Part shown: positions 6,806 to 36,498 of the stretch, piece by piece
How the letters are laid out: each line of letters starts with the position of its first letter
Position numbering within the stretch: position 1 is the first letter of the stretch
NCBI GenBank assembly: GCA_030834185.1
Contig: JAURFT010000008.1
Span: 1-39,273 of the forward strand
DNA from: Candidatus Nanopelagicales bacterium
GTDB taxonomy: Bacteria > Actinomycetota > Actinomycetes > S36-B12 > UBA5976
DNA: 39,273 bases
Direction: 5' to 3'
Program-made: the position numbers and the translations under genes
Notes under the pieces: generated by a model
Databases searched by the model: none
Told to the model about the DNA's origin: nothing
Seen by the model: the letters and a program-made list of their open reading frames with translations, nothing else

Positions 6806-7825
6806 TTACTCCTTTGTTGAGGTGCTAAATTCAATATGCGGTTGTAGTTCGCCTGGAAAGAAACAGGCGACGTTTCGGCCATTTGGTAGCTGTTGTAGCT
6901 CTGGGGTCTGGGTTTTACATTGCTCTCTTGCAATTGGACAGCGCGGATGAAACGAGCAACCTGTTGGTCGAGCAATTGGAGATGGCGGTGCGCCATTAAG
7001 CACAATTCGCTCTTTACGAGATGCTTCATCTAAGGCAGGAACTGCAGATAACAGCGCTGCTGTATATGGATGCTGCGGATTTGAAACCACATCATCGCAA
7101 ACTCCCTCTTCGACCACTCGACCCAGATACATCACCACAACTCGAGTTGCCAAGTGATAAACCAAACGCAGGTCATGTGAAACTAAAACATAAGAGATGT
7201 TTCGCTCTTCTTGAATGCGCTGCAGCAAATTCACAATCTGCGCTTGCGTAGATACATCTAGCGCCGATACTGGCTCATCGGCAATAAGCACTTGTGGATT
7301 CAGCGCTAATGCTCTGGCAATTGCAATTCGCTGGCGCTGACCGCCAGAGAATTGACTGGCTCGGCGATCTAATAGATCTGCGCTAAGCCCAACTGCTTCA
7401 AGTAGTTTGCCTGCTTGTTCTCGCAGTTCAGATTTGCTTAATTTGTGATGTGCACGAAGCGGTTCACCAATTACTTTTGCAACGGTCATACGTGGATCTA
7501 AGCTGGAATATGGATCTTGAAACACCATCTGCACTTTTTTACGAAAATCTTTAAGTGCTTTCTCCGATAGATTTGTTACATCTTGATTCTCAAAATAAAT
7601 ACTGCCGCTGGATGGCGGATTAGTTCGCATCAACGATAACGCAAGGGTAGTTTTGCCAGAGCCAGATTCGCCGACAATTGCAACAGTTTCACCAGCTTTA
7701 ACCTGAAAACTTACATTATCAACAGCTTTAAGCGATCCAGTTGGGACTCGAAACGTAATTGATAAATCTACTGCTTTTAACAGCGCTGAATTCAGATCTG
7801 GCTGACTGCTAATTGGGTTGCTCAT
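6806..7825 (-). CDS. dppF: Peptide/nickel-type ABC importer ATPase, DppF/OppF-like
   Basis: A 339-residue cytoplasmic ATPase of the peptide/opine/nickel importer family. Walker A is GESGSGKTTL (about 52-61), the Q-loop lies in VFQDPYSSLDPR, the ABC signature is FSGGQRQRIAIARA, Walker B is VLIADEPVSALD and the switch His is in LVSHDL. The C-terminal oligo_HPY extension has the CSFHPRCPIA motif with cysteines seen in DppD/F and OppD/F. Its ATG overlaps the dppD stop (ATGA). With DppD it powers the DppB/DppC channel. It is the fifth gene of an operon starting at 12244. Substrate cannot be set from the ATPase. Confidence 0.93.
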   Translation of the reverse strand: MSNPISSQPDLNSALLKAVDLSITFRVPTGSLKAVDNVSFQVKAGETVAIVGESGSGKTTLALSLMRTNPPSSGSIYFENQDVTNLSEKALKDFRKKVQMVFQDPYSSLDPRMTVAKVIGEPLRAHHKLSKSELREQAGKLLEAVGLSADLLDRRASQFSGGQRQRIAIARALALNPQVLIADEPVSALDVSTQAQIVNLLQRIQEERNISYVLVSHDLRLVYHLATRVVVMYLGRVVEEGVCDDVVSNPQHPYTAALLSAVPALDEASRKERIVLNGAPPSPIARPTGCSFHPRCPIAREQCKTQTPELQQLPNGRNVACFFPGELQPHIEFSTSTKE

Positions 7826-8805
7826 CGCGTAGCTCCAATCACTGGATGAAAACAGGCAACATTGTTTTCAAACGCAGGCTCTGCTGCTTGGCAAACATGA
7901 TCGGCATAATTACATCGCGAAGCAAAGCGGCAACCAGAAACAATTTCAGTGATCTGCGGTGGTGAACCAGGAATTGGGTTCAGCGCCGGGCGAGCTGGAT
8001 CAAAGCGGGGAATTGCAGCTAATAAGCCGCGGGTATATGGGTGTTTTGGGGTGCTTAGAATTTCAGCAACCGGACCTTGCTCCACAATATTTCCCGCATA
8101 CATAACCACAATGCGATTGCAAACATCAGCTGCAACTGCAAGATCATGGGTAATTAGCATCAACGAAGCATCTCCCATGCCGCTGCGCAGTAGATCTAAA
8201 ATCTGCGCTTGAATTGTGGCATCAAGGGCGGTTGTTGGCTCATCGGCAACTACTAGCTGCGGGTTATTTATAAGTGCTAGCGCAATCATTACGCGCTGTC
8301 GCAGCCCACCAGAGAGCTGATGTGGATAGGCCTTTAATCGCTCAGCAGGAGAAGGAATACCAACTGCAGTTAGCACTTCAAGCACTTTAGCTGCTGCATC
8401 TTTTTTGTTTAAATTGGTATGTCTTGTCACAGATTCAGAGAGCTGACTAGAAACGGTGCGAACTGGATTCAGCGATGTTAGCGGCTCTTGAAATACCATT
8501 GAGATATCTTTACCGCGCAGTTTGCGAGCAACTGAATCTGGCGCGGAAACCATATCAACACCATTAATTAGCACTTCGCCTTCAACTTTAGCTGAAGTTG
8601 GCTGAATACCTAACATGCTTAACCCAAGCATGGTTTTACCTGAGCCAGATTCACCCACAATTGCCACGCGCTCGCCAGCTTTAATCGTGAGATTAATGCC
8701 GCGTACAACCGCCGAATAACCAGCTGGGGTTGGGAAGCTAACTTTTAAGTTCTTTACCTCAACTGCATTAATCATTGCAGTGTTACTCACTGCGGAATTA
8801 TTCAC
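7822..8805 (-). CDS. dppD: Peptide/nickel-type ABC importer ATPase, DppD/OppD-like
   Basis: A 327-residue ATPase paired with DppF. Walker A is GESGSGKTML, the Q-loop is VFQEPLTSLNPVR, the signature LSGGLRQRVMIALAL, and Walker B VVADEPTTALD with ITHDL following. The C-terminal oligo_HPY region has GCRFASRCNYA and a late VACFHP. The start is a GTG overlapping the dppC stop by four bases (GTGA). A small ATG-based alternative 30 bases inside (MINAVEV) is possible but would break the coupling. Confidence 0.93.
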   Translation of the reverse strand: MNNSAVSNTAMINAVEVKNLKVSFPTPAGYSAVVRGINLTIKAGERVAIVGESGSGKTMLGLSMLGIQPTSAKVEGEVLINGVDMVSAPDSVARKLRGKDISMVFQEPLTSLNPVRTVSSQLSESVTRHTNLNKKDAAAKVLEVLTAVGIPSPAERLKAYPHQLSGGLRQRVMIALALINNPQLVVADEPTTALDATIQAQILDLLRSGMGDASLMLITHDLAVAADVCNRIVVMYAGNIVEQGPVAEILSTPKHPYTRGLLAAIPRFDPARPALNPIPGSPPQITEIVSGCRFASRCNYADHVCQAAEPAFENNVACFHPVIGATR

Positions 8806-9692
8806 TGTGACACCCGTGTGCTTCTGGCTTGTTCGCGCGCATTTAATCCTTCACCTAACAAATTTGCAGTAAAAATCGTAAGCACAATTGCAACTGCCGG
8901 ACCAAGCATCATCCATGGGGCAGTTGCTAAATAGGTTCGACTTTCATTCAGCATATTTCCCCACGTTGGCGTACCAAGAGGTGCGCCTAGACCAAGAAAT
9001 GACAATCCGCTCTCAGCAATTAATAAATCTGCAAACACAAATGCTGCAATTACCTGCAGCGTTGGTCGCAGCGCGGGCAGAATATGAGTGAATATGGATC
9101 TAAATGCAGTAACGCCAAATAACCGAGCTGCTGTGACATATTCGCGCTCGCGCAGCGTTAAAGTTTCAGCATAAACAACTCGCGCAATTGTGGGCCAGCA
9201 AACCAGCCCCAGCGTAAGTCCAAGCGCCCAAAAGCCTCTACCAACAACAGAGACAATAGTTACAGCAATAATTAAATATGGGAACGAGATGCCAATATCA
9301 ATAATTCGGCTCAGCACAATTCGCACTCGATTGCGATTCCAAGCGGCGCTAATTCCAAGCGTGATCCCAATAAATCCGCCTAAAATTGTGCCAACAGATG
9401 CAATCCCAAGCGACCATCTAAAGCCAGCAATTACCCGAGAGAACACATCTTGCCCAAGGCCATCAGTGCCAAGCCAGGCGCCGCCCAAACTTGGTGATTG
9501 CAATCGAAGACCTAGATCAGCTAAAAATGGATCAACGCGATAAAACAGCGGTTGGAAAATTGCAACAATAAATAGCAGCCCTAAAAATGTTGAGCTGATG
9601 CGCAGCGTTAGCGGCGATCTATTATATTTTTTAGCAAACTTCTTTCGAGAAAACGGCATTACTACTTCAGTTGGTTTAGCTTCAGCGCTCAT
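8802..9692 (-). CDS. dppC: ABC importer permease, DppC/OppC-like
   Basis: A 296-residue inner-membrane permease with the OppC_N type first membrane segment (TLRISSTFLGLLFIVAIF) after a basic N-terminus, and five further segments. The coupling EAA region is visible as the YVTAARLFGVTAFRSIFTHILP stretch (split by its conserved Gly), which docks on the ATPases. LIAESGLSFLGLGAPLGTPT near the C-terminus is highly typical of DppC. It overlaps dppB and dppD by four bases each. It forms the channel with DppB. Confidence 0.92.
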   Translation of the reverse strand: MSAEAKPTEVVMPFSRKKFAKKYNRSPLTLRISSTFLGLLFIVAIFQPLFYRVDPFLADLGLRLQSPSLGGAWLGTDGLGQDVFSRVIAGFRWSLGIASVGTILGGFIGITLGISAAWNRNRVRIVLSRIIDIGISFPYLIIAVTIVSVVGRGFWALGLTLGLVCWPTIARVVYAETLTLREREYVTAARLFGVTAFRSIFTHILPALRPTLQVIAAFVFADLLIAESGLSFLGLGAPLGTPTWGNMLNESRTYLATAPWMMLGPAVAIVLTIFTANLLGEGLNAREQARSTRVSQ

Positions 9693-10624
9693 AGTTGGCT
9701 CTTTCGCAAGCGTGGATCGGCTAATCTAAATACTTGATCCATAACCAAATTAACAAAAAATACTAAACAGGCAACTACAAACACAGTTGCTTGAACGGTT
9801 GGAAAATCTAAATTCGTAATTGATTGCACCAAAATTAAACCTAAACCTGGCCAGGCAAAAATAAATTCAGTGATTAATGCGCCAGAAAGTAAAAATGCAA
9901 ACTGCGCGCCAAGTAAAGATGTGGCTGATAGCAACGCATTTGGCAGCGAATGCTTAATTAATAGCTCGGTTGGATTGGCGCCATTAGCTTTTGCAGTTCG
10001 GTAATAATCTTGCCGGGTGGTGTCTTCAACATTTGCTGCGAGCACGCGGATTAGATTCGGCGCTAGCGCAAAAGCTAAAGTTGCAGTTGGCAAAATCCAA
10101 GCACCAGGACCGGTATTGGCAATTGATGGCAACCAGCCCAGCCAGACTGCAAAGATCTGAATTAAAACCAGCCCAATTACATAAGAAGGGGTTCCCTGCG
10201 CCACGCTAACAATTGTGCTTAGCACTCGGCGCTTGCGCTGATTTGGTTTTGCCCCAAGCCAGATTCCCGCTGGAATGGCAACAATGGTGTTAAACACAAT
10301 TGCTAAAAAGGTTAACTTCAAAGTAGATGGTAGATATTGCAGCACAAATGAAAGCGCAGGCTGCGAATTAACTAATGAATTACCAAAATCAAGGTTGATA
10401 ACATCTCTTATAAATACAAAATATTGGGTGATCAGCGGCTTATCAAATCCATTTGCAATTCTTATGGCTTCAATAATCTCAGGTGTCGCACCTTCGCCAG
10501 CCAGGATAAGTGCTGGATCACCTGAAAGTCTAAGCAGTAAGAACAGAACTGTAGAGACGCTCCAAAGCAGAATTAGTAACTGGATAATTCGGGACCAAAG
10601 CGCTTTGCCTCTTCGATTAAGCAT
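9689..10624 (-). CDS. dppB: ABC importer permease, DppB/OppB-like
   Basis: A 311-residue permease with the first helix at about residues 11-32, a periplasmic-type N-terminal loop containing GDPALILAGEGATPE, and the EAA-type coupling loop DYYRTAKANGANPTELLIKH. The ending AVFVVACLVFFVNLVMDQVF and ADPRLR are typical of the DppB family. AAAGGTG lies before the ATG. It is separated from dppA by 90 bases that hold a strong hairpin. It is translationally coupled to dppC. Confidence 0.92.
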   Translation of the reverse strand: MLNRRGKALWSRIIQLLILLWSVSTVLFLLLRLSGDPALILAGEGATPEIIEAIRIANGFDKPLITQYFVFIRDVINLDFGNSLVNSQPALSFVLQYLPSTLKLTFLAIVFNTIVAIPAGIWLGAKPNQRKRRVLSTIVSVAQGTPSYVIGLVLIQIFAVWLGWLPSIANTGPGAWILPTATLAFALAPNLIRVLAANVEDTTRQDYYRTAKANGANPTELLIKHSLPNALLSATSLLGAQFAFLLSGALITEFIFAWPGLGLILVQSITNLDFPTVQATVFVVACLVFFVNLVMDQVFRLADPRLRKSQL

Positions 10625-26939: not shown

Positions 26940-26969
26940 TATGCTATGCGTTATTAACGTGAAACGTTA
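26940..26969 (+). promoter_or_regulatory. higA promoter and operator
   Basis: A -10-like TATGCT (26940-26945) is followed by the inverted repeat TAACGT-GAA-ACGTTA (26955-26969), which would overlap the transcript start. The position suits autorepression by the encoded HTH protein. Confidence 0.5.
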
Positions 26970-27000
26970 TTACAGTCCAGAGAGGGTTAAGGGATTAGCT

Positions 27001-27345
27001 ATGAAATTAACTGATGCTTTAAATCCCAACGCAGAGGTCCGAAACCTCGATCCTGTCTCTCCTGGTGAACTCTTATCAGAAGAGTTTCTTAAGCCAATGA
27101 AGCTAACTAAATATCGCCTAGCAAAAGAGATTGATGTTCCAGCGCAGCGCATCGGTGAAATAGTTAAAGGTAAGCGAGCAATAACTCCAGATACAGATTT
27201 AAGGCTCTGCCGTTTTTTCGGGTTGTCAGATGGTTACTGGTTACGCGTGCAGGCAAACTACGATCTTCACTTGGCCCGTGCTGCCATGAGGGATAAATTA
27301 ATTAAAATTCAACCGTGGACACATGGTTCACCAGCTAGTTCTTGA
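27001..27345 (+). CDS. higA: HigA-type antitoxin/XRE regulator without a toxin partner
   Basis: A 114-residue HTH protein of the HigA/VapI family. The hallmark SPGELLSEEFLKPMKLTKYRLAKEIDVPAQRI (two adjoining blocks, about residues 20-51) holds the helix-turn-helix; GKRAITPDTDLRLCRFFGLSDGYWLRVQANYDL, again in two blocks, is the typical HigA C-terminal dimer region. The ATG at 26941 is open in frame, but the promoter and operator cover that stretch and AAGGGA lies 6 bases before the ATG at 27001, so I chose the latter. HigA normally pairs with a HigB mRNase encoded just upstream; here the upstream 160 bases hold no such frame. It may be a solitary regulator. Confidence 0.85.
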   Translation: MKLTDALNPNAEVRNLDPVSPGELLSEEFLKPMKLTKYRLAKEIDVPAQRIGEIVKGKRAITPDTDLRLCRFFGLSDGYWLRVQANYDLHLARAAMRDKLIKIQPWTHGSPASS

Positions 27346-27402: not shown

Positions 27403-28131
27403 TTGAATCAATCTTTAACTGCAGCCAAAATAAATCAAGAATTAAATCGACTTAGCAATCCCAAACTGGCTAAAGCCCAGCTTGGGTTTTATCAAACCCA
27501 AAAGGGTGGCTATGGCGAGGGTGATAAGTTTTTAGGTATTCGAGTGCCAGCATCAAGAGCTGTTGCAAAAGCAAATATCAATTTACCGCTAACTGAAATT
27601 GCTAAATTAACTGCTAGTAAGTATCACGAAGTTCGATTTGTTGGACTTGCAATATTAGTGCTGCAGTTTCAAAAAACTAAAGATCCAAAGCAACAAAAGC
27701 AGCTATTTGATTTTTATCTAAAACTGGTTAAACAAAACAGTGTCAACAATTGGGATTTAGTAGATGCTACAGCTCCTTATCTAGGTGTGTATTTAATTGA
27801 TCAACCAGGTGCTAGCAAGCTACTTGTTCAGCTAGCTAAAGCTAAGAATCTCTGGGTGCAGCGCGTAGCTGTGCTTTTTACCTTTGCGTTTATTAGAGCA
27901 GGAGATAATCAGCCAACACTGCTGCTAGCTAAACAACTACTTAATCACCCACATGATCTAATACATAAAGCAACGGGTTGGATGCTCCGAGAAGCAGGCA
28001 AGCGCAACCTTGCCGATCTACGGGGATTCTTAGCAGCTTATGCAAACATCATGCCGCGCACCATGCTGCGATATGCCATTGAGAAACTGTCAGCGACTGA
28101 GCGAAAAAAATGGCTGGCTAAAAAGAGTTAG
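27403..28131 (+). CDS. AlkD-like DNA alkylation repair protein (DNA glycosylase)
   Basis: A 242-residue all-helical HEAT-like-repeat protein of the DNA alkylation repair family, which excises bulky or cationic N3-/N7-alkylpurines without base flipping. Family marks: GDKFLGIRVPASRAVAK near residue 45, YHEVRFVGLAIL, the active-site NNWDLVDATAP (Trp and Asp at about 110-114), WVQRVAVLFTFAFI, and the end block KATGWMLREAGKR ... MPRTMLRYAIEKL. The start is TTG with AAAGGA upstream; no ATG fits. It converges on the acetoacetyl-CoA synthetase gene with four bases shared, leaving no terminator. Confidence 0.92.
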   Translation: MNQSLTAAKINQELNRLSNPKLAKAQLGFYQTQKGGYGEGDKFLGIRVPASRAVAKANINLPLTEIAKLTASKYHEVRFVGLAILVLQFQKTKDPKQQKQLFDFYLKLVKQNSVNNWDLVDATAPYLGVYLIDQPGASKLLVQLAKAKNLWVQRVAVLFTFAFIRAGDNQPTLLLAKQLLNHPHDLIHKATGWMLREAGKRNLADLRGFLAAYANIMPRTMLRYAIEKLSATERKKWLAKKS

Positions 28132-30020
28132 CTTTGCAGTTCAATTAGATTCTTAAACCAAGCCAAACTATCTGGATTAGCAAGTGCTTCTAGGTTTTTA
28201 ACTTCGCGGTTATTTATTACTTCAGTTACTGCTAACTCAACTAATTTATTGCTCTTGGTTCGAGGTAGCTCTGGTGCGGCAATTATTTTTACCGGCACAT
28301 GGCGCGGACTGGCTTTTGAACGCAGCGCATATTTAATATCTGAGATCAGCGATTCTGTTAACTCATAACCATCTCGCAGTTTCACAAATAAAATCACTCG
28401 AGTGTCACTATCCCATTCTTGGGCGACCGCCATTGCTTCTTGAATTGGCACAAACTCTTCTACGATTCGATATATCTCAGCTGTGCCAATTCGCACCCCA
28501 CCGCTATTTAACGTGGCATCACTTCTGCCATAAATTACAAATCCGCCGTTCTGGGTTGTGGCAGCGAAATCTCCATGCGCCCATACCCCAGCAAATTTCT
28601 CAAAATAGGCAGCTTTGAATTTTGCGTTATTTTCATCCGCGCCAAAATAAAGTGGTCTAGATGGAAATGACTGCAGACAAACCAGCTCACCTTTTTCACC
28701 AACTGCAGCTGCTTCGCCGTTATCGCTATAAACCGCCATATTCATTCCCAGCGCAGGCGCTTGAATCTCACCGGCATAAACCGGCAGATTTGGCGCACCC
28801 ATCACAAAGCAACCACAAATATCAGTGCCACCAGAGATGGATGCCAGATGCAGATCGGCTTTTATTGATTCATACACATAATCAAAGCCTTCAGGTGAGA
28901 GCGGAGATCCAGTTGAAGTAATAGTGCGCAGCTCGCTTAGGTCATGGGTTTTAATTGGCTCCAGATTAAATTTTCTAAGCGAATCAATGTATTTAGCACT
29001 TACTCCAAACAGTGTGAATTTTTCTTCTTGGGCCATATCAAATAATCGAGCTGGACGCGGAAATGCCGGATTGCCGTCATAAAGCACAATCGATGCGCCA
29101 ACCGCTAGCGTCATTAATAGCCAGTTCCACATCATCCAGCCACAGGTGGTGTAATAAAAGACGTTATCGCCTGGTTTTATATCTAAGTTATATCGCTGCT
29201 CTGAGATTACTTTTAACATTACGCCAGCTGCTGAATGCACAATGCATTTTGGTTTTCCAGTTGTGCCTGAAGAGAACAAAATAAATCCAGGTTGATCAAA
29301 TGGCAGCAGCACTGGCTCATGTTGATCTGAGAACTCGCTGCGCCAATTTTCAAAGTTCTGCGCAGTTGAGCTCTGCCCGCCAATTAATAACACTTTTTTA
29401 AGCGTAGGTAAGCCTGCGCTAATTTCAGGTAATCGATCTAAACAATCAACATCTTTACCGTTGTATTGATAACTGGTTGCAGCTAACAGCACTTTGGGCG
29501 CAATTTGCCCAAATCGATCCAGCACTCCGGTAGTGCCAAAATCAGGTGAAGCAGTTGAAACTGTAGCGCCAATGCTAAGCGCTGCTAATCCATAAATTAC
29601 GACATCAGCTAGATTTGGCACCCAAGCTGCTACGACATCTCCTGGCTTTACGCCAAGTGAGATAAGGCCGTTTGCGGTTTGATTAACTGCTTTTTTTATT
29701 TCACCACGAGAGTATCTGCGCCGAATTCCAGCTTCAGAGATCTCGGTAATAATAATTTGGTCTAGGTCGCCGCTTAATAACGTATTTACTACATTAAGTT
29801 TGGCAGTTGGAAAAAACTTAGTATCAAAAAATCCAGCACCAGCAATTACAGTTTCGCCTGCGTCACCAATCACATTGTTATCCCAGACATAACCCCAAAA
29901 TTCAGCAGGATTTGTAATGGACCAATCATGGAGCTGCTGGTAATTTGATACGCCAGCAAAATTTTGCAGGTTAGTAATTTCTAAATTAGCAGAGCTGGGA
30001 TTCCACAGAAGTTTTGCCAT
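28128..30020 (-). CDS. aacS: Acetoacetyl-CoA synthetase
   Basis: A 630-residue acyl-adenylate-forming ligase that joins acetoacetate to CoA using ATP. It matches AacS over its full length: HDWSITNPAEFWGYVW near the N-terminus, SPDFGTTGVLDRFGQIAPK (about 155-175), YQYNGKDVD, the P-loop FSSGTTGKPKCIVHSAAG, YYTTCGWMMWNWL, LASISGGTDICGCFV, GRSDATLNSGGVRIGTAEIY, and the catalytic-lysine block PRTKSNKLVELAV. These tell it apart from acetyl-CoA synthetase. It is the last gene of the livK-G-F-H-M operon, 12 bases after livM, so the imported acid may be acetoacetate or become it. AacS serves ketone-body or PHB breakdown. Confidence 0.95.
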   Translation of the reverse strand: MAKLLWNPSSANLEITNLQNFAGVSNYQQLHDWSITNPAEFWGYVWDNNVIGDAGETVIAGAGFFDTKFFPTAKLNVVNTLLSGDLDQIIITEISEAGIRRRYSRGEIKKAVNQTANGLISLGVKPGDVVAAWVPNLADVVIYGLAALSIGATVSTASPDFGTTGVLDRFGQIAPKVLLAATSYQYNGKDVDCLDRLPEISAGLPTLKKVLLIGGQSSTAQNFENWRSEFSDQHEPVLLPFDQPGFILFSSGTTGKPKCIVHSAAGVMLKVISEQRYNLDIKPGDNVFYYTTCGWMMWNWLLMTLAVGASIVLYDGNPAFPRPARLFDMAQEEKFTLFGVSAKYIDSLRKFNLEPIKTHDLSELRTITSTGSPLSPEGFDYVYESIKADLHLASISGGTDICGCFVMGAPNLPVYAGEIQAPALGMNMAVYSDNGEAAAVGEKGELVCLQSFPSRPLYFGADENNAKFKAAYFEKFAGVWAHGDFAATTQNGGFVIYGRSDATLNSGGVRIGTAEIYRIVEEFVPIQEAMAVAQEWDSDTRVILFVKLRDGYELTESLISDIKYALRSKASPRHVPVKIIAAPELPRTKSNKLVELAVTEVINNREVKNLEALANPDSLAWFKNLIELQS

Positions 30021-30032
30021 AGGGCGCTAATT

Positions 30033-31046
30033 TTACTTGAAGCTGGCGATTTTTAGCCGCAGCCGATACAGCGCACCTGCAATACCGCCTGGTGAGAACA
30101 TCACTACCAAGATAAAAATCACACCTAAAATAAATGCAGGCTCACTCATTGGGCCGCCAATCCATTCCGGCAGACCAGCTAGCGCACCTTGAGTATCTAA
30201 AGTTGTAAGTCGCTGCGATAGCACCACATAAATTAACCCACCAATTACAGCTCCCCAACGAGTTGCAATGCCACCAAGAATCACCATCAATAACAATGAA
30301 ATAGTGGTCTGGGTGGATGCCATAACAGGATTTGCGTTATTAGTTACCACAACTGCAACTACACCAACAAAGGCTGCCATCACACCTGCAAGCACAAATG
30401 CAATCAGCTTAAAGCTAAATGGTCGAAGCCCTAGCACGCTGACTCGCTCTTCGTTTTCACGCAGCGCCTGCCACACACGTCCTACCGAAGATTGAGTTAG
30501 CCACCAAACAGCCAAATAAATTATCGCTAATGTGATTAGCGCTAACAAATACAGATTTCGAGTGTTTGCTACACCTAAGAAGAAATCTGGCACAGAGTCA
30601 AAATTCAGCTGCAAGGTTTTATCACCCTCGCTTAAACCCCAAAGGTTTAAAGTAACAATCACATGGCCAGCTTCAGCAAAAGCTAACGTCACCATGGCAA
30701 ATGCAATGCCTTTTACCCGAAGTGCGGCAGTTCCGGTAAACAGCGCAACTAAAAATGCAAAAAATAGTGCAAAAATGCCAGCTGGGATGATCCCCCAATC
30801 CCAGCGCGCCATCGCAAAGGCTGCGCCATATGCACCAGCGGCATAAAACAGCGCATGGCCAAATGAAAGCAGCCCAGTAAAGCCAAGTAGTAGATCATAA
30901 GTTAGCGCTAGCCCACCAAATAAAAATGCCACTGCAAATGTTTGCTGTAAACCTGGCTCATCAATTAGCGGAGTGAATGCACCAAATCCAGCAATCAACA
31001 TAAATATCAGTGGCACAAATCGATATTTGCTAGGTAACAGAATCAT
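30033..31046 (-). CDS. livM: Branched-chain-amino-acid-type ABC permease LivM
   Basis: A 337-residue permease with about eight to ten membrane helices. Family marks are LTYDLLLGFTGLLSFGHALFYAAGAYGAA in two adjoining blocks (about 48-76), the coupling segment VGRVWQALRENEERVSVLGLRPFSFKLIAFVLAG (two blocks, about 190-220), and ILGGIATRWGAVIGGL. AGGAAAGG precedes the ATG, which directly follows the livH stop. It pairs with LivH in a HAAT-type importer. Substrate here probably not amino acids, given aacS downstream. Confidence 0.93.
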   Translation of the reverse strand: MILLPSKYRFVPLIFMLIAGFGAFTPLIDEPGLQQTFAVAFLFGGLALTYDLLLGFTGLLSFGHALFYAAGAYGAAFAMARWDWGIIPAGIFALFFAFLVALFTGTAALRVKGIAFAMVTLAFAEAGHVIVTLNLWGLSEGDKTLQLNFDSVPDFFLGVANTRNLYLLALITLAIIYLAVWWLTQSSVGRVWQALRENEERVSVLGLRPFSFKLIAFVLAGVMAAFVGVVAVVVTNNANPVMASTQTTISLLLMVILGGIATRWGAVIGGLIYVVLSQRLTTLDTQGALAGLPEWIGGPMSEPAFILGVIFILVVMFSPGGIAGALYRLRLKIASFK

Positions 31047-31928
31047 TTAATGAGCTACCTTTCCTAGCAATCCTTGTGGTCTTGTTAGCAGCACAACTGC
31101 AAGCAGCAGCACCACCACAAAATCACCCAAGCCTTGTACGTAATAATTTACTAACACCTGAGTTGTGCCCACAATTACAGCTGCAATGGCAGTGCCAGGG
31201 ATAGATCCCATGCCACCAATTACAACTGTGATAAATGCGTAAATTAAAAATGCATCACCAAGCGTTGGTCCAACACCTGAGGCGTATGTGGTGGCTAGCG
31301 CACCACCAAGACCAGCTGCAAATCCACCAATAAAGAACACAAAAGTAAACGCTTTTCGAACATCAATGCCAAGCGCGGTAACCATGGCGCGATTCTCCAC
31401 GCCAGCTCGAATCACTAAACCAATTCGGGTGTAGCGCAGCATCAAGAAGTTTGCAAGTAAAACTAAACCGGCAACAGTGATATATAAGAATCTATCAATA
31501 CCAACAAATGCATCGCCAATTTGAACTACGTCATATAACTGAGTTGGCGGCAGGGCAATGAGCGGATCTGAGCCAAACCAACCTAAATATGCGCTTACTG
31601 CAACTAGGCCAAGCCCAACTGTGACTAGCGCCTGATCAATATGGCGGTCATACAGATGCTTAATTAATAACTGCTCAGTTGCCACCGCAAATATTGCCCC
31701 AACTAAACCTGAAAGCACCAAGCTAATGGCATAGCTAGTTAATGAGCCATCTGCGCGAACTTCAGTTGTGAAATACCAAGCGGCATAGGCGCCAGCAGTT
31801 AAAAATGCGCCGTGCGCAAAGTTCAATACTCCCATTAAGCCATAAATTAAGCTCAAACCAGATGCTACTAAGAAATACAGCGCACCAAGCCCCACACCGG
31901 TAATAAATAGCGTGATAAAGATTTCCAT
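31047..31928 (-). CDS. livH: Branched-chain-amino-acid-type ABC permease LivH
   Basis: A 293-residue permease: GLGALYFLVASGLSLIYGLMGVLNFAHGAFLTAG across residues 12-45 in two blocks is the LivH signature, and LRYTRIGLVIRAGVENRAMVTALGIDV (two blocks, about 165-190) is the ATPase-coupling loop. IGGMGSIPGTAIAAVIVG is near the C-terminus. Its start overlaps the livF stop by one base (TAATG). It forms the translocation channel with LivM. Confidence 0.93.
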   Translation of the reverse strand: MEIFITLFITGVGLGALYFLVASGLSLIYGLMGVLNFAHGAFLTAGAYAAWYFTTEVRADGSLTSYAISLVLSGLVGAIFAVATEQLLIKHLYDRHIDQALVTVGLGLVAVSAYLGWFGSDPLIALPPTQLYDVVQIGDAFVGIDRFLYITVAGLVLLANFLMLRYTRIGLVIRAGVENRAMVTALGIDVRKAFTFVFFIGGFAAGLGGALATTYASGVGPTLGDAFLIYAFITVVIGGMGSIPGTAIAAVIVGTTQVLVNYYVQGLGDFVVVLLLAVVLLTRPQGLLGKVAH

Positions 31929-32629
31929 TAGTGACTGCCTCCGCTCACGCCAAGCATTCGCTTTGCAAAATCAGCATCAGCTAGTTCAGCTGGGGTGCCG
32001 TTATGAACCACAACACCTTGATCCATCACAATAATATTTTTAGCTACTCGCTTTACTAGCGGCAAATTCTGCTCAACAAGCAAAATGGTTGTGGCTTGAG
32101 CTGCAATTTCAAGAGCTGCTGCAACTTCTGTTACAAGTTTTGGTGCTAAACCTTTAGTTGGCTCATCAACTAGCAGTAATCTGGTTTTATTTAGCAGCGC
32201 TCTGGCAACTGCAACCATCTGCTGCTGACCGCCAGAGAGCGTGCCAGCTCGCTGGTTTTTGCGCTGTAATAACTCAGGAAACAACTGGTGCACCGTGTCG
32301 TAATCTGGATTTTTATCGCGCTCAGCCAGTTTTAGATTCTCTGCAACAGTTAAAGATGCAAAAATTTCTCGATCCTCTGGCACAAAGGCCACTCCAGCAC
32401 GAATTACTTCATGCGTGCGTAAACCTGAGATCTCTTCACCAAATAAGTTAATCGATCCAACTCGTGGCACTAGTCCAACTATGGAGCGCAGCGTGGTTGA
32501 TTTACCAACTCCGTTTCGGCCTAGTAATCCCGTTACAACTCCTGCTTCAATTTCGAAGTTAACGCCTTGCAGAATATGTGATCCTTTTATTGTGACATTC
32601 ACATCAGTTAGCGTTAATGCATTAGTCAT
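31928..32629 (-). CDS. livF: Liv-type ABC ATPase LivF
   Basis: A 233-residue ATPase. Walker A is GRNGVGKSTTLRS (about 37-49), the Q-loop region is AFVPEDREIFASLTV, which is diagnostic of LivF, the signature TLSGGQQQMVAVARAL, and Walker B LLLVDEPTKGLAP. Its ATG overlaps the livG stop by four bases. It energises the LivH-LivM channel together with LivG. Confidence 0.94.
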   Translation of the reverse strand: MTNALTLTDVNVTIKGSHILQGVNFEIEAGVVTGLLGRNGVGKSTTLRSIVGLVPRVGSINLFGEEISGLRTHEVIRAGVAFVPEDREIFASLTVAENLKLAERDKNPDYDTVHQLFPELLQRKNQRAGTLSGGQQQMVAVARALLNKTRLLLVDEPTKGLAPKLVTEVAAALEIAAQATTILLVEQNLPLVKRVAKNIIVMDQGVVVHNGTPAELADADFAKRMLGVSGGSH

Positions 32630-33384
32630 AATGATTCAACTAAATAAGCACTTTGCACTGTTGGATCATTAATTACAGTCTGCGGATCAGCACAAATTAG
32701 TAGCTCACCTTGATGCATCACAGCAATTCGATCAGCTAAACCTAAAACTACATGCATATGGTGCTCCACCATCAAAACTGTTCGGTTGTAATCGCGAGAT
32801 AACGAGCGGATAATTTCTGTTAATACTGGCACATTCTCTACCGACATACCCGCCATTGGCTCATCGAGCATCACAACTTTGGCATCACTTGCTAACACAA
32901 TGGCAATCTCTAAGCGTCGCTTATCTCCATGAGAAAGCGATCCGGCAAAACTAAATTTTTTATCACTTAAACCAACAGCCTCTAATGCCTGTTCAGCTTT
33001 TTCAATTGCTGGTTTAAAACTATATGCGCGGCGTGTAATCTTCATCGAGCCGCCCATAGCAGCTTCTGCTGCTAAGCGAACATTTTCTAGCACTGACAGC
33101 ATGGTAAATACGCTGGAGGTTTGAAATGTTCGACCTAATCCTTTGCTAGCTCTGCTAGCAGTTGATTCAGTAGTGATGTCATCATCACCTAAAAATATTT
33201 TACCTCGAGTTGCAGGACGCAATCCGGAGATTAAATTAAACAAACTTGTTTTGCCCGCACCATTTGGGCCAATAATCCCAAGTAGTTCACCTGGTGCAAC
33301 TTCAAGAGTTACACCATCAACAATTTTGGCACCGCCAATTGCGAGGCTCAGATCGGAAACGCGTATTGCCGCGTTACTGGTCAC
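32626..33384 (-). CDS. livG: Liv-type ABC ATPase LivG
   Basis: A 252-residue ATPase. Walker A is GPNGAGKTSLFNLISG, GLGRTFQTSSVF is the Q-loop of LivG, the signature segment is LSHGDKRRLEIAIVLA, slightly unusual in reading LSHGD for LSYGQ, and Walker B is VVMLDEPMAGMS. A longer frame opens at TTG 33396, but GTG at 33384 has GCGAGG five bases upstream, so I prefer it. It follows livK by about 40 bases. Confidence 0.93.
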   Translation of the reverse strand: MTSNAAIRVSDLSLAIGGAKIVDGVTLEVAPGELLGIIGPNGAGKTSLFNLISGLRPATRGKIFLGDDDITTESTASRASKGLGRTFQTSSVFTMLSVLENVRLAAEAAMGGSMKITRRAYSFKPAIEKAEQALEAVGLSDKKFSFAGSLSHGDKRRLEIAIVLASDAKVVMLDEPMAGMSVENVPVLTEIIRSLSRDYNRTVLMVEHHMHVVLGLADRIAVMHQGELLICADPQTVINDPTVQSAYLVESL

Positions 33385-33426
33385 TGAGCCTCGCAATCGT
33401 TAGTCGGTTTTAACTAGTTGTAGATC

Positions 33427-34650
33427 TTAGTTCAGCGGTGGCGCTGCGTTTGGATACAACTTAACTAGTTTAGGAATGAAGTTTGCACCTTCACGCACTA
33501 GACGAGTTTGATACATTGGCTGAACCAAAGCATGATCGTCTTTACGGATCTGGGTAACACCCTTCATTGATGTGAATCTCCAACCTTCAAGGCCGTTAAT
33601 CATGGCGTTAACGCCAGTTTTTCCGGACTTCTTGTTTGCCTTCATGCTTAACGCACGAACAATCATCTGAGCTGCAGTAACACCATCTGGAGTGAATAGA
33701 TCTTCACCATAGAAAGGTGCTGCAGTTGGATTGGCTCTTCGGTAATCTGCACGTAGTGCATTTCCGATGTTATTTGTAGAAGCACCTGGGAAATAGCTGC
33801 TTGAGTAAATAACGTTTCGGTCACCAAGTAGCTGGCCGAAGATTGGGTATGCAGCAGTTTGAGCAAGACCAGTAACAATATTGATATTACCCAAAATTCC
33901 CTGCTGACGCATTGCAGTCCACATGGCTAGTGATGTTGCAGTGTTTGACCATGCAACGAATACTGTATCTGGGTTTGACTGACGAAGTCGCAGCACATCT
34001 GCGGTGTAATCAGATTTTGTTCCAGTTACTTTTTGGCCAATAACGGTTGCACCTGGGAATAGCTTTGGTGCAGCTGAGATATAAGCATCTCCGAATGCAT
34101 TGTCTTCAACAAACAACACGATTCGTTTACCAGCAAAGTTATTTCCAAGTGCACCTTTAATTGGAATTAGATCCTGTTCGGTCTGAACGCCAGAACGGAA
34201 GGTGTATTTGTTTGCAAACGGGCTACCCTTTTGGGTAATGAGGAACATCTTGGCAGGACCAGAGATGTAAAGAACTTTGTTTTGGGAAGCAAGTGGAGCA
34301 AGGGCTAGTGCTACACCACTGCTTACGGTTCCAACTACAATTTTGCTCTTCTTGCCTACTGCGGTTTTGAAGTGAGTGGTTGCGGTATCTGGCAAGCCAC
34401 CGTCATCGTATTTGGTGAGCACAATTTTTTGGTTGTTAACAACCATGGTTCCCTTGGTGAAATAATTAAGTCCCCACTCAAGACCTGCAACATATGCGTC
34501 ACCAAATGGCTTTAGGCCACCTGAAGTTGAAGAAATAACTGAAACCTCAACATTTTTTGGTGCAGCGTTAGCTGCAGTTGAGCCCGCGAAAACCAGTGCG
34601 GCAGAAACACCTAGCACGGTGGCGTTGCGGAGCATCTTTCGCACTGACAT
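33427..34650 (-). CDS. livK: Liv-type periplasmic-binding-fold receptor
   Basis: A 407-residue receptor of the Peripla_BP_6 (LivJ/LivK) family. A signal peptide (residues 1-30) ends in AANAAPKN, a type I site with no lipobox cysteine. The mature part shows VISSTSGGLKPFGDAYVAGLEWGLNYF split at the Gly (about 38-64), GTVSSGVALALAPLASQNKVLYI, and VFVAWSNTATSLAMWTAMRQQGI, typical of the two lobes. It is first in the operon with AAGGAGTT upstream. Given aacS in the same operon and a hydroxybutyrate-dehydrogenase-like gene opposite, the ligand may be a short hydroxy- or keto-acid; amino acids remain possible. Confidence 0.9.
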   Translation of the reverse strand: MSVRKMLRNATVLGVSAALVFAGSTAANAAPKNVEVSVISSTSGGLKPFGDAYVAGLEWGLNYFTKGTMVVNNQKIVLTKYDDGGLPDTATTHFKTAVGKKSKIVVGTVSSGVALALAPLASQNKVLYISGPAKMFLITQKGSPFANKYTFRSGVQTEQDLIPIKGALGNNFAGKRIVLFVEDNAFGDAYISAAPKLFPGATVIGQKVTGTKSDYTADVLRLRQSNPDTVFVAWSNTATSLAMWTAMRQQGILGNINIVTGLAQTAAYPIFGQLLGDRNVIYSSSYFPGASTNNIGNALRADYRRANPTAAPFYGEDLFTPDGVTAAQMIVRALSMKANKKSGKTGVNAMINGLEGWRFTSMKGVTQIRKDDHALVQPMYQTRLVREGANFIPKLVKLYPNAAPPLN

Positions 34651-34763
34651 GCGAACTCCTTCTCTTACAAAAGCGGGCTACCTGATGGCAGCCCTCGTTA
34701 AGCCTACCTTGCCCTATCGGGCAGGATTAAAGCAACTGAATAGGCCGATAATTTCTCACAATT

Positions 34764-34799
34764 TTGAGCGTGCTCAATAGTTGTCGAATTTACTATTGA
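34764..34799. promoter_or_regulatory. Overlapping dyads between livK and the SDR gene
   Basis: TTGAGC-GT-GCTCAA (34764-34777) is directly followed by TCAATAGT-N10-ACTATTGA (34774-34799). Both are perfect inverted repeats in the 211-base divergent region. They suit one or two dimeric regulators controlling the Liv-aacS operon and the SDR-hydrolase pair. No regulator gene is adjacent. Confidence 0.55.
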
Positions 34800-34861
34800 A
34801 TTACTCACCAGTAGCATTTTCACTAAGTTAAGTTGTCACAACGTTGCCATCAAAGGAACAT

Positions 34862-35620
34862 ATGCGCGGAATTGAGATCGACCTCAGCGGAAAAAAAGCT
34901 GCTGTCAGCGGAGCTGCTAGTGGCATTGGTAAAGCGGTGGCGATTGCGCTAGCTGCAGCTGGGGCAAAAGTTACAGTGATTGATTTTAATGAATCAGCAA
35001 CGATACAAGTTGCTGATGAAATCAATGGCACACCGCTAATACTTGATTTATCCGATAGCGCAAAAGTAGAACAGACCAAATTAGATGTTGATATTTTAGT
35101 TAATAACGCTGGCTTACAAACTGTTTCTAAAGTTGAAGAGTTTGATCCAGAGCGATTTGGTTATATGCATCGCGTGATGTTAATTGCACCATTTTTATTA
35201 ACTCGAAATGCAATTGCTGGGATGTATCAGAAAAAATGGGGCAGATTAATTCATATTTCATCTGCTCATGGTCATCGTGCCTCACCATATAAATCTGCTT
35301 ACGTTTCAGCTAAACATGGGCTGGAAGGATTTTCAAAAACTATTGCGTTAGAAGCAGGACCTTTTGGTGTAACTTCAAACACAATTGCACCGGCATATGT
35401 GCGCACTCCACTTGTTGAAAAACAAATAACAGCACAAGCTGAACTACATGGTATTTCTGAAGCAGAAGTAGTTGAGAAAATTATGTTAACTGCTCCAGTA
35501 ATTAAACGATTAATCGAACCAAGCGAGATTGGTGATGCTGCGCTTTATTTATGCAGTGAATCAGCTGGCATGATTACTGGCACATCACTTGTTATTGATG
35601 GCGGTTGGTTAGCTCGATGA
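34862..35620 (+). CDS. Short-chain dehydrogenase, 3-hydroxybutyrate dehydrogenase-like
   Basis: A 252-residue classical SDR. The cofactor loop is SGAASGIGKA (about 14-23), NNAG is present, catalytic Ser lies in LIHISSAHGHRASP and Tyr-Lys in SAYVSAKHG. NNAGLQTVSKVEEF, APAYVRTPLVEKQI and LCSESAGMITGTSLVIDGGWLA match D-3-hydroxybutyrate dehydrogenase closely, which oxidises 3-hydroxybutyrate to acetoacetate with NAD+. An in-frame TTG at 34844 exists, but AAAGGA precedes the ATG at 34862. It is divergent from the Liv-aacS operon, whose AacS would take the product. Exact substrate is inferred. Confidence 0.87.
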   Translation: MRGIEIDLSGKKAAVSGAASGIGKAVAIALAAAGAKVTVIDFNESATIQVADEINGTPLILDLSDSAKVEQTKLDVDILVNNAGLQTVSKVEEFDPERFGYMHRVMLIAPFLLTRNAIAGMYQKKWGRLIHISSAHGHRASPYKSAYVSAKHGLEGFSKTIALEAGPFGVTSNTIAPAYVRTPLVEKQITAQAELHGISEAEVVEKIMLTAPVIKRLIEPSEIGDAALYLCSESAGMITGTSLVIDGGWLAR

Positions 35621-36498
35621 CCTCAATTACGCCAATCAAAAAACATTTAATAAATGTTGCCGGTGGTGAACTTACAGTTTTTCAATACGGCGAAACAACT
35701 GCAAAATCAATGCTGGCAATTCACGGCATTACCTCTAATCACTTAGCTTGGCAGCACTTTGCTGCGCATGCCATTAACAGTGGTTATGTGGTTTATGCGC
35801 CGGACTTAAGAGGCAGAGCAGCATCAAACAAATTGCTAGCACCTTTTGGCATGAAAGCTCATGCTGCAGATATGCATGCTGTAATTGAGCAGCTGCAGTT
35901 AACTAAACCGTTTGTAATTGGTCATTCCATGGGTGGGTTTGTAGCAATTGCACTTAATCATTTTTATCCAGACTTGATTGGCAAACTAGTTTTAATTGAT
36001 GGCGGCTTACCACTTGCGCTGCCAGCAGGTATGACTGTGGAACAAGTGCTACCACTTGTGTTAGGTCCAGCGCTGGCGCGGCTTGCGATGAAATTTGAAT
36101 CTACGGACGCTTATGTTGATTATTGGCGAGCACATCCAGCATTTGCTGATGGCATAACGCCAGAGATGGAAAATTACATTCGTCATGATTTAGTTGGTGT
36201 TGCGCCAGAGTTAATGCCAAGCACAAATCCTGATTGTGTAAATGAAGATTCAGTTGATTTGTGGTCAAGCGACTTGATAGATAATGCGTTAATTGAATTA
36301 AATCAAGATGTGATTTTGTTGCGAGCCGTTCGCGGCTTACAAAATGAACCAACTGGGCTTTATCCTGAGTTGCTGCTTGCTGATTTAGCAGCTAAATATC
36401 CAAAGGTTGAAATTATTACGATTACCGATACAAATCATTATTCAATTTTGATGAGTGATGCAGGAGCATCGGCAATTCGCGCGCAGATTCAGCTGTGA
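35617..36498 (+). CDS. Alpha/beta hydrolase
   Basis: A 293-residue alpha/beta-hydrolase-fold protein. The oxyanion-hole segment is LAIHGITSNHLAWQHF, the nucleophile elbow VIGHSMGGFVAIA (Ser about 105), followed by LVLIDGGLPLALP and a cap domain; the catalytic His is in TDTNHYSILM near the C-terminus. The ATG at 35617 overlaps the SDR stop (ATGA), so the two are co-translated; the earlier frame opening at 35605 is inside the SDR gene. No signal peptide. It might cleave a hydroxybutyrate oligomer or ester, feeding the SDR. Generic hydrolase is certain, the substrate is not. Confidence 0.88.
   Translation: MTSITPIKKHLINVAGGELTVFQYGETTAKSMLAIHGITSNHLAWQHFAAHAINSGYVVYAPDLRGRAASNKLLAPFGMKAHAADMHAVIEQLQLTKPFVIGHSMGGFVAIALNHFYPDLIGKLVLIDGGLPLALPAGMTVEQVLPLVLGPALARLAMKFESTDAYVDYWRAHPAFADGITPEMENYIRHDLVGVAPELMPSTNPDCVNEDSVDLWSSDLIDNALIELNQDVILLRAVRGLQNEPTGLYPELLLADLAAKYPKVEIITITDTNHYSILMSDAGASAIRAQIQL

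Follow-up and report, generated by a model that had tools for sequence, protein, structure and literature searches.

We analyzed a 39,273-nucleotide stretch of contig JAURFT010000008.1 from a Candidatus Nanopelagicales bacterium (the window), in which an operon for a Liv-type ATP-binding cassette (ABC) importer adjoins genes of ketone-body metabolism. The island consists of eight genes, all of them intact open frames (Table 1). The genes for the receptor, livG, livF, livH, livM and aacS form one tight operon on the minus strand, with a gap of 30 bases between the receptor gene and livG, overlaps of four bases between livG and livF and of one base between livF and livH, no gap between livH and livM, and 12 bases between livM and aacS. 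The frames and their coordinates bear out a preliminary description, made from the sequence alone, in which aacS was the last gene of a livKGFHM operon. The same description mentioned a divergent 3-hydroxybutyrate-dehydrogenase-like short-chain dehydrogenase/reductase (SDR) and a co-translated hydrolase, and both are present on the plus strand, the SDR gene followed by that of an alpha/beta hydrolase. For the SDR, ATG 34862 (252 aa) and not TTG 34844 is very likely the start codon, because a plausible ribosome site precedes it and the sister species uses the same start. For the hydrolase, the start is very likely ATG 35617 (293 aa), which overlaps the SDR stop codon as ATGA, so that the term co-translated is correct.

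The aacS product scores above the cut-offs of two curated acetoacetate--CoA ligase models (780 bits versus 639 for NF002937, and 691 versus 521 for TIGR01217), and its closest solved structure is the acetoacetate-CoA ligase 4wd1 (E 8e-127). Among the NCBIfam 3-hydroxybutyrate dehydrogenase (HBDH) models, the SDR lies above the cut-off of NF009093 (264 versus 258) and just below that of TIGR01963 (285 versus 307), and the solved structures closest to it are those of D-3-hydroxybutyrate dehydrogenases (E 3e-55). By the residue roles established for the P. fragi enzyme, it retains all of the carboxylate-binding residues (Q94, H144, K152 and Q196) and the catalytic S142, Y155 and K159. The hydrolase belongs to generic families only (PF00561/PF12697); its residues S108, D215 and H278 (numbering of a 297-aa frame) are invariant in 16 orthologues, and the polyhydroxybutyrate (PHB) depolymerase 8ynv is found among its sequence and fold matches, not in first place. 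The preliminary description had proposed a complete chain from an ester or oligomer through 3-hydroxybutyrate (3HB) and acetoacetate to acetoacetyl-CoA; the steps of the SDR and AacS are supported by this family evidence, whereas an ester or oligomer would be only a putative substrate of the hydrolase.

The carrier is a member of the Liv-type (HAAT) family by its anatomy, as a PF13458 receptor, two PF02653 permeases and two PF00005 ATPases are encoded in one operon. This five-gene layout is shared with LivJ/LivK-LivHMGF of E. coli (TC 3.A.1.4), from which the window system differs in its ketone-body partner genes and in the receptor pocket. The carrier fails branched-chain-specific subfamily tests: its receptor reaches 38 bits in the NCBIfam Liv receptor model NF011933, whose cut-off is 477, and matches LivJ weakly (E 1e-4). 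All five components were also below the cut-offs of the curated UrtA-E models of the urea importer.

LivJ and LivK from E. coli K-12 were aligned with the receptors, and the known ligand residues, whose roles were taken from established LivJ structures, landed at the expected numbers. Ser79 of LivJ is kept in the window receptor (Ser111), position 100 holds Pro or Ala and position 150 Phe, and Thr102 is replaced by K134 or M135, depending on the register. No acidic residue is present at or near the position of the ammonium-binding Glu226 (GLAQT in the window receptor) in two separate alignments. The motif at Thr102 reads PAK in all six aacS-linked receptors, which form one clade with full support; the register is ambiguous here, and in some relatives the sequence is PAAT, so that their Thr may be retained, whereas the window receptor has none in either register. 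Ser79 is thus the only main-chain anchoring residue retained, and the full alpha-amino-acid set of LivJ is not kept. As judged from the alignments and a predicted model, the pocket argues against an alpha-amino-acid ligand without naming the actual one. The residue at LivJ position 226 was also considered as a marker for PHB-linked versus unlinked receptors and was rejected, as the linked ones show Asp, Gly or Ala.

The AlphaFold model of the receptor (predicted local distance difference test 88) has 3n0x as its closest fold, with hydroxybenzoate binders among the next matches and LivJ (1z15) in 49th place. RPA4397 of Rhodopseudomonas palustris (PDB 3n0x/3nnd) is the closest solved structure by both sequence (1e-26) and fold (1.9e-26), and is about 28% identical to the window receptor. 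The aromatic-acid HAAT receptors of R. palustris (4evs, 4ey3 and 4f06) provide a precedent for a non-amino-acid ligand, since they accommodate hydroxy-carboxylates without an amino group in a Liv-type fold; they are 15-20% identical to the window receptor, and their ligands are aromatic.

The same eight genes, with 74-89% identity, are present in the sister species (G009), where the island is flanked by rplI/ssb/alkD-type genes on one side and by endonuclease IV on the other, with one extra gene before the latter. A third genome of the genus (G008) has a contig that begins inside the hydrolase gene, directly before endonuclease IV, so that its island was probably cut by assembly. When 395 genomes of the class were searched with AacS, the closest relatives came from one family, which belongs to a different order. 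In four genomes of that order (G232, G341, G449 and G463) the full island is found, with aacS directly after livM or overlapping it by about 4 bases, and with divergent hydrolase and HBDH genes in the opposite internal order; other members of that family carry aacS alone. The HBDH of these four genomes is of another lineage (34-36% identical), stands at the equivalent place and keeps all key residues, which suggests that the function, not one gene, is conserved. The adjacency of aacS to the importer, whose conservation the preliminary description had proposed to check, is therefore not confined to this genome, and the linkage is far beyond chance because the arrangement recurs.

Several variants of the island were also observed. 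A decayed form (L155 in G387, 7079-10614) has intact HBDH and aacS genes with adjoining fragments of livM and the hydrolase gene, the receptor gene and livGFH being gone. The livM of G449 is in two frames (L154, 7679-8540), as a result of either an assembly frameshift or a pseudogene. Two genomes of a sister genus, G507 (L172) and G394 (L173), have the order HBDH-hydrolase-receptor-livGFHM with no aacS in reach, and the receptor match of G507 contains one in-frame stop.

A genome-wide scan with the receptor alignment yielded 80 actinobacterial loci (36-43% identity). Genes for a window-type hydrolase (33-45% identity) and for HBDH (39-58%) are repeatedly found near them, among other genera in Arthrobacter, Glutamicibacter, Streptomyces, Promicromonospora, Terrabacter, Microbacterium and Nocardiopsis. 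Outside the Micromonosporaceae, at least one ketone-body or PHB gene lies nearby in 35 of 43 loci. The genes scoAB, whose products pass curated models, adjoin in Streptomyces, Kitasatospora, Microbacterium and Catenulispora; ScoAB is non-homologous to AacS and performs the same acetoacetate activation. Additionally, a secreted PHB depolymerase is encoded nearby in Catellatospora, Catelliglobosispora, Streptomyces, Kitasatospora, Nocardiopsis, Nocardioides, Promicromonospora and Sphaerimonospora, and two representatives scored 306 and 174 bits in NF050058 (extracellular short-chain polyhydroxyalkanoate (PHA) depolymerase; cut-off 150). The depolymerase and scoAB beside the same receptor thus provide an independent pointer to 3HB and acetoacetate, and they support the earlier suggestion that the importer may carry hydroxybutyrate or acetoacetate and not branched-chain amino acids. 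As a guard against best-hit bias, 395 evenly sampled genomes of the class were searched (receptor threshold E <= 1e-40), and the receptor was detected in 32. With the window and the four full islands excluded, the 27 further neighbourhoods contained the hydrolase in 23 cases, HBDH in 20, scoAB in eight and the PHB depolymerase in seven. Neither the hydrolase nor HBDH was found in 14 regions that were centred on aacS and lacked the receptor (L147-L150, L157-L166). One alphaproteobacterial plasmid has the gene order HBDH, receptor, livGFHM, alpha/beta hydrolase.

Other genes were also seen beside the receptor operon. In Micrococcaceae and relatives (L019, L027, L174, L177 and similar), an AMP-dependent acyl-CoA ligase and a TetR-like regulator are encoded between livM and HBDH, even together with scoAB. 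A regulator of the GAF-PucR type (about 650 aa), which likely governs PHB use in actinomycetes, adjoins HBDH and the PHB depolymerase in L054, L063, L065, L176 and L183. Alphaproteobacterial plasmids (L006, L007, L008 and L010) combine receptor-livGFHM-alpha/beta hydrolase with an AMP ligase, an enoyl-CoA hydratase, MaoC and TetR, possibly as a related hydroxy-acid pathway.

In the rest of the genome, a thiolase is encoded (TIGR01930, 425 bits). A PHB synthase (PhaC) was not found in this genome or its sister, and a PF10503 PHB depolymerase was not found in this genome (G000), G009 or G008, so that there is no sign of PHB being stored or depolymerised by the organism itself. With the thiolase and without a synthase or recognised depolymerase, this genome's bearer probably scavenges what others release, which fits the earlier suggestion that the acids come from polyhydroxybutyrate of other bacteria.

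AacS serves leucine catabolism in some bacteria. The Liv operon layout would also agree with an ordinary branched-chain amino-acid importer, next to which aacS is present since leucine breakdown ends in acetoacetate; we consider this explanation very improbable. A gene for 3-hydroxy-3-methylglutaryl-CoA (HMG-CoA) lyase was not found in this genome or in G009, in both of which the HMGL-like genes are all of LeuA or CimA size. The HMGL-like genes here are two, of 578 and 528 aa, adjoining leuB and ilvE; by size and neighbours they are LeuA and CimA, and leucine breakdown is therefore not a likely acetoacetate source. The complete genome G232, which carries the full island, likewise has only two long HMGL-like genes. 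The receptor without Glu226 and Thr102, and its low score in the Liv receptor model, also speak against an amino-acid importer, as does a second, separate complete Liv operon on contig 32, which is a better candidate for branched-chain amino acids than the window operon. Moreover, HBDH, the hydrolase and the PHB depolymerases of the neighbourhoods would be left unexplained. On the other side, G463 has an HMG-CoA lyase with adjoining carboxylase, acyl-CoA dehydrogenase and hydratase genes of leucine breakdown, and G341 has an HMG-CoA-lyase-sized gene, so that AacS could have a second role there. For this genome, leucine catabolism was rejected as the reason for aacS.

We consider it likely that the island serves to scavenge and catabolise PHB breakdown products by means of a Liv-type importer whose substrate we infer from these neighbourhoods. 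Depolymerases of other organisms would cut released PHB outside the cell to 3HB and short oligomers, which would be taken up by the importer through the receptor that has lost its ammonium site. The co-translated hydrolase may then cut the imported oligomers to 3HB, the SDR would oxidise 3HB to acetoacetate, as its family and active site strongly suggest, and AacS, made together with the importer, would convert acetoacetate to acetoacetyl-CoA, as its family matches strongly suggest. The flux would end with the thiolase, predicted from its family to split acetoacetyl-CoA into two acetyl-CoA.

The imported form would be PHB-derived 3HB, probably as short oligomers. It is possible, although we find it less probable, that within the same pathway nothing larger than the monomer 3HB (or acetoacetate) passes through the importer and that the hydrolase, which is without a close characterised relative, acts on another 3HB ester, a lactone or the like; HBDH and AacS or ScoAB would already be enough for the monomer. 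However, no other partner accompanies the receptor as constantly as the hydrolase in the 27 neighbourhoods, and in several genera its gene is close to those of extracellular PHB depolymerases, as would fit an enzyme that hydrolyses oligomers inside the cell. It is unlikely that the importer serves another, non-C4 hydroxy- or keto-acid ester to which the HBDH-like SDR and AacS have drifted, although the receptor family includes hydroxybenzoate binders and its operon occurs with an AMP ligase in several alphaproteobacteria and Micrococcaceae, in the former also with enoyl-CoA hydratase and MaoC genes. Such drift is at odds with the intact 3HB active-site residues in two different HBDH lineages, with AacS passing the curated models in the window, G232 and L087, and with the PHB depolymerase linkage.

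It is important to mention the observations that count against a PHB module. Besides the leucine-breakdown genes of G463 and the lyase-sized gene of G341, HBDH has Met in place of the catalytic Asn114 of the SDR tetrad, a replacement common to its actinobacterial relatives. The hydrolase resembles PHB depolymerases weakly, with 55 bits in the intracellular PHA depolymerase model NF050089 (cut-off 300), and its fold search is led by generic esterases, a PHB depolymerase being 15th. Most Micromonosporaceae (L014-L068, Micromonospora group) carry the receptor and Liv operon without PHB or ketone-body partners, and the receptor family is therefore not always PHB-coupled. Additionally, the genome is about 87% complete and its absences are provisional, which for HMG-CoA lyase is offset by the same result in G009 and the complete G232.

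Among known systems, HbtABC of Ruegeria pomeroyi (SPO2571-2573) is an experimentally identified 3HB importer, described as the only confirmed bacterial one as of 2023 (PMC10130141); it comprises three genes, compared with the five of the Liv system. Extracellular PHB degradation (PhaZ depolymerase, 3HB-oligomer hydrolase, HBDH, and ScoAB or AacS) uses the same enzymes after uptake, and the operons of relatives adjoin a depolymerase, whereas this genome differs from a complete PHB-degrading system in its lack of a detected PF10503 depolymerase. In the open-access literature we came across no publication that names a Liv-type importer for PHB products, the searchable actinobacterial literature yielded no carrier for this uptake step, and searches for RPA4397 or a bacterial 3HB transporter yielded nothing beyond HbtABC.

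A broader proposal, to which we give an even chance, is that a widespread actinobacterial Liv-type subfamily with alphaproteobacterial relatives, which annotation labels as importing branched-chain amino acids, mediates the uptake of PHB-derived 3HB oligomers. Actinobacteria with streamlined genomes would retain uptake and catabolism alone and feed on PHB that other organisms have digested, AacS and ScoAB would be interchangeable, and HBDH would have been recruited from more than one lineage. An importer of PHB products would add a new class of substrates to a transporter family that is already known, without being a novel type of machinery. If such a function is confirmed, the label of amino-acid importer is mistaken in many genomes, where the transporter in fact imports PHB products, and it is an error to count it towards nitrogen uptake in metabolic models. 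The importer would also offer a marker gene for the uptake step in PHB turnover and for the fate of PHB bioplastics, and a cheater-type niche, with uptake and catabolism but no depolymerase, would be directly testable.

Table 1. Features of the island, with positions in the window.
Feature	Position	Strand	Evidence
aacS, acetoacetate--CoA ligase, last gene of the operon	28128..30020	-	NF002937, TIGR01217 above curated cut-offs; 4wd1
livM-type permease	30033..31046	-	PF02653
livH-type permease	31047..31928	-	PF02653
livF-type ATPase, one-base overlap with livH	31928..32629	-	PF00005
livG-type ATPase, four-base overlap with livF	32626..33396	-	PF00005
Periplasmic-type receptor (Peripla_BP_6), proposed binder of 3-hydroxybutyrate/oligomers	33427..34650	-	PF13458
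Divergent intergenic region, expected promoters for both arms	34651..34861	.	sequence
3-hydroxybutyrate dehydrogenase (SDR), corrected start	34862..35620	+	NF009093 above cut-off
Alpha/beta hydrolase, proposed 3-hydroxybutyrate-oligomer (ester) hydrolase	35617..36498	+	PF00561/PF12697

Outside the island, a HigA-like antitoxin gene was recognised by eye at 26941-27345, with no toxin gene called beside it. The divergent promoter region contains a perfect palindrome, TCAATAGT-N10-ACTATTGA, at 34774-34799. It was rejected as a conserved operator, since nothing corresponds to it in the other group and its right half alone recurs in the sister species G009.

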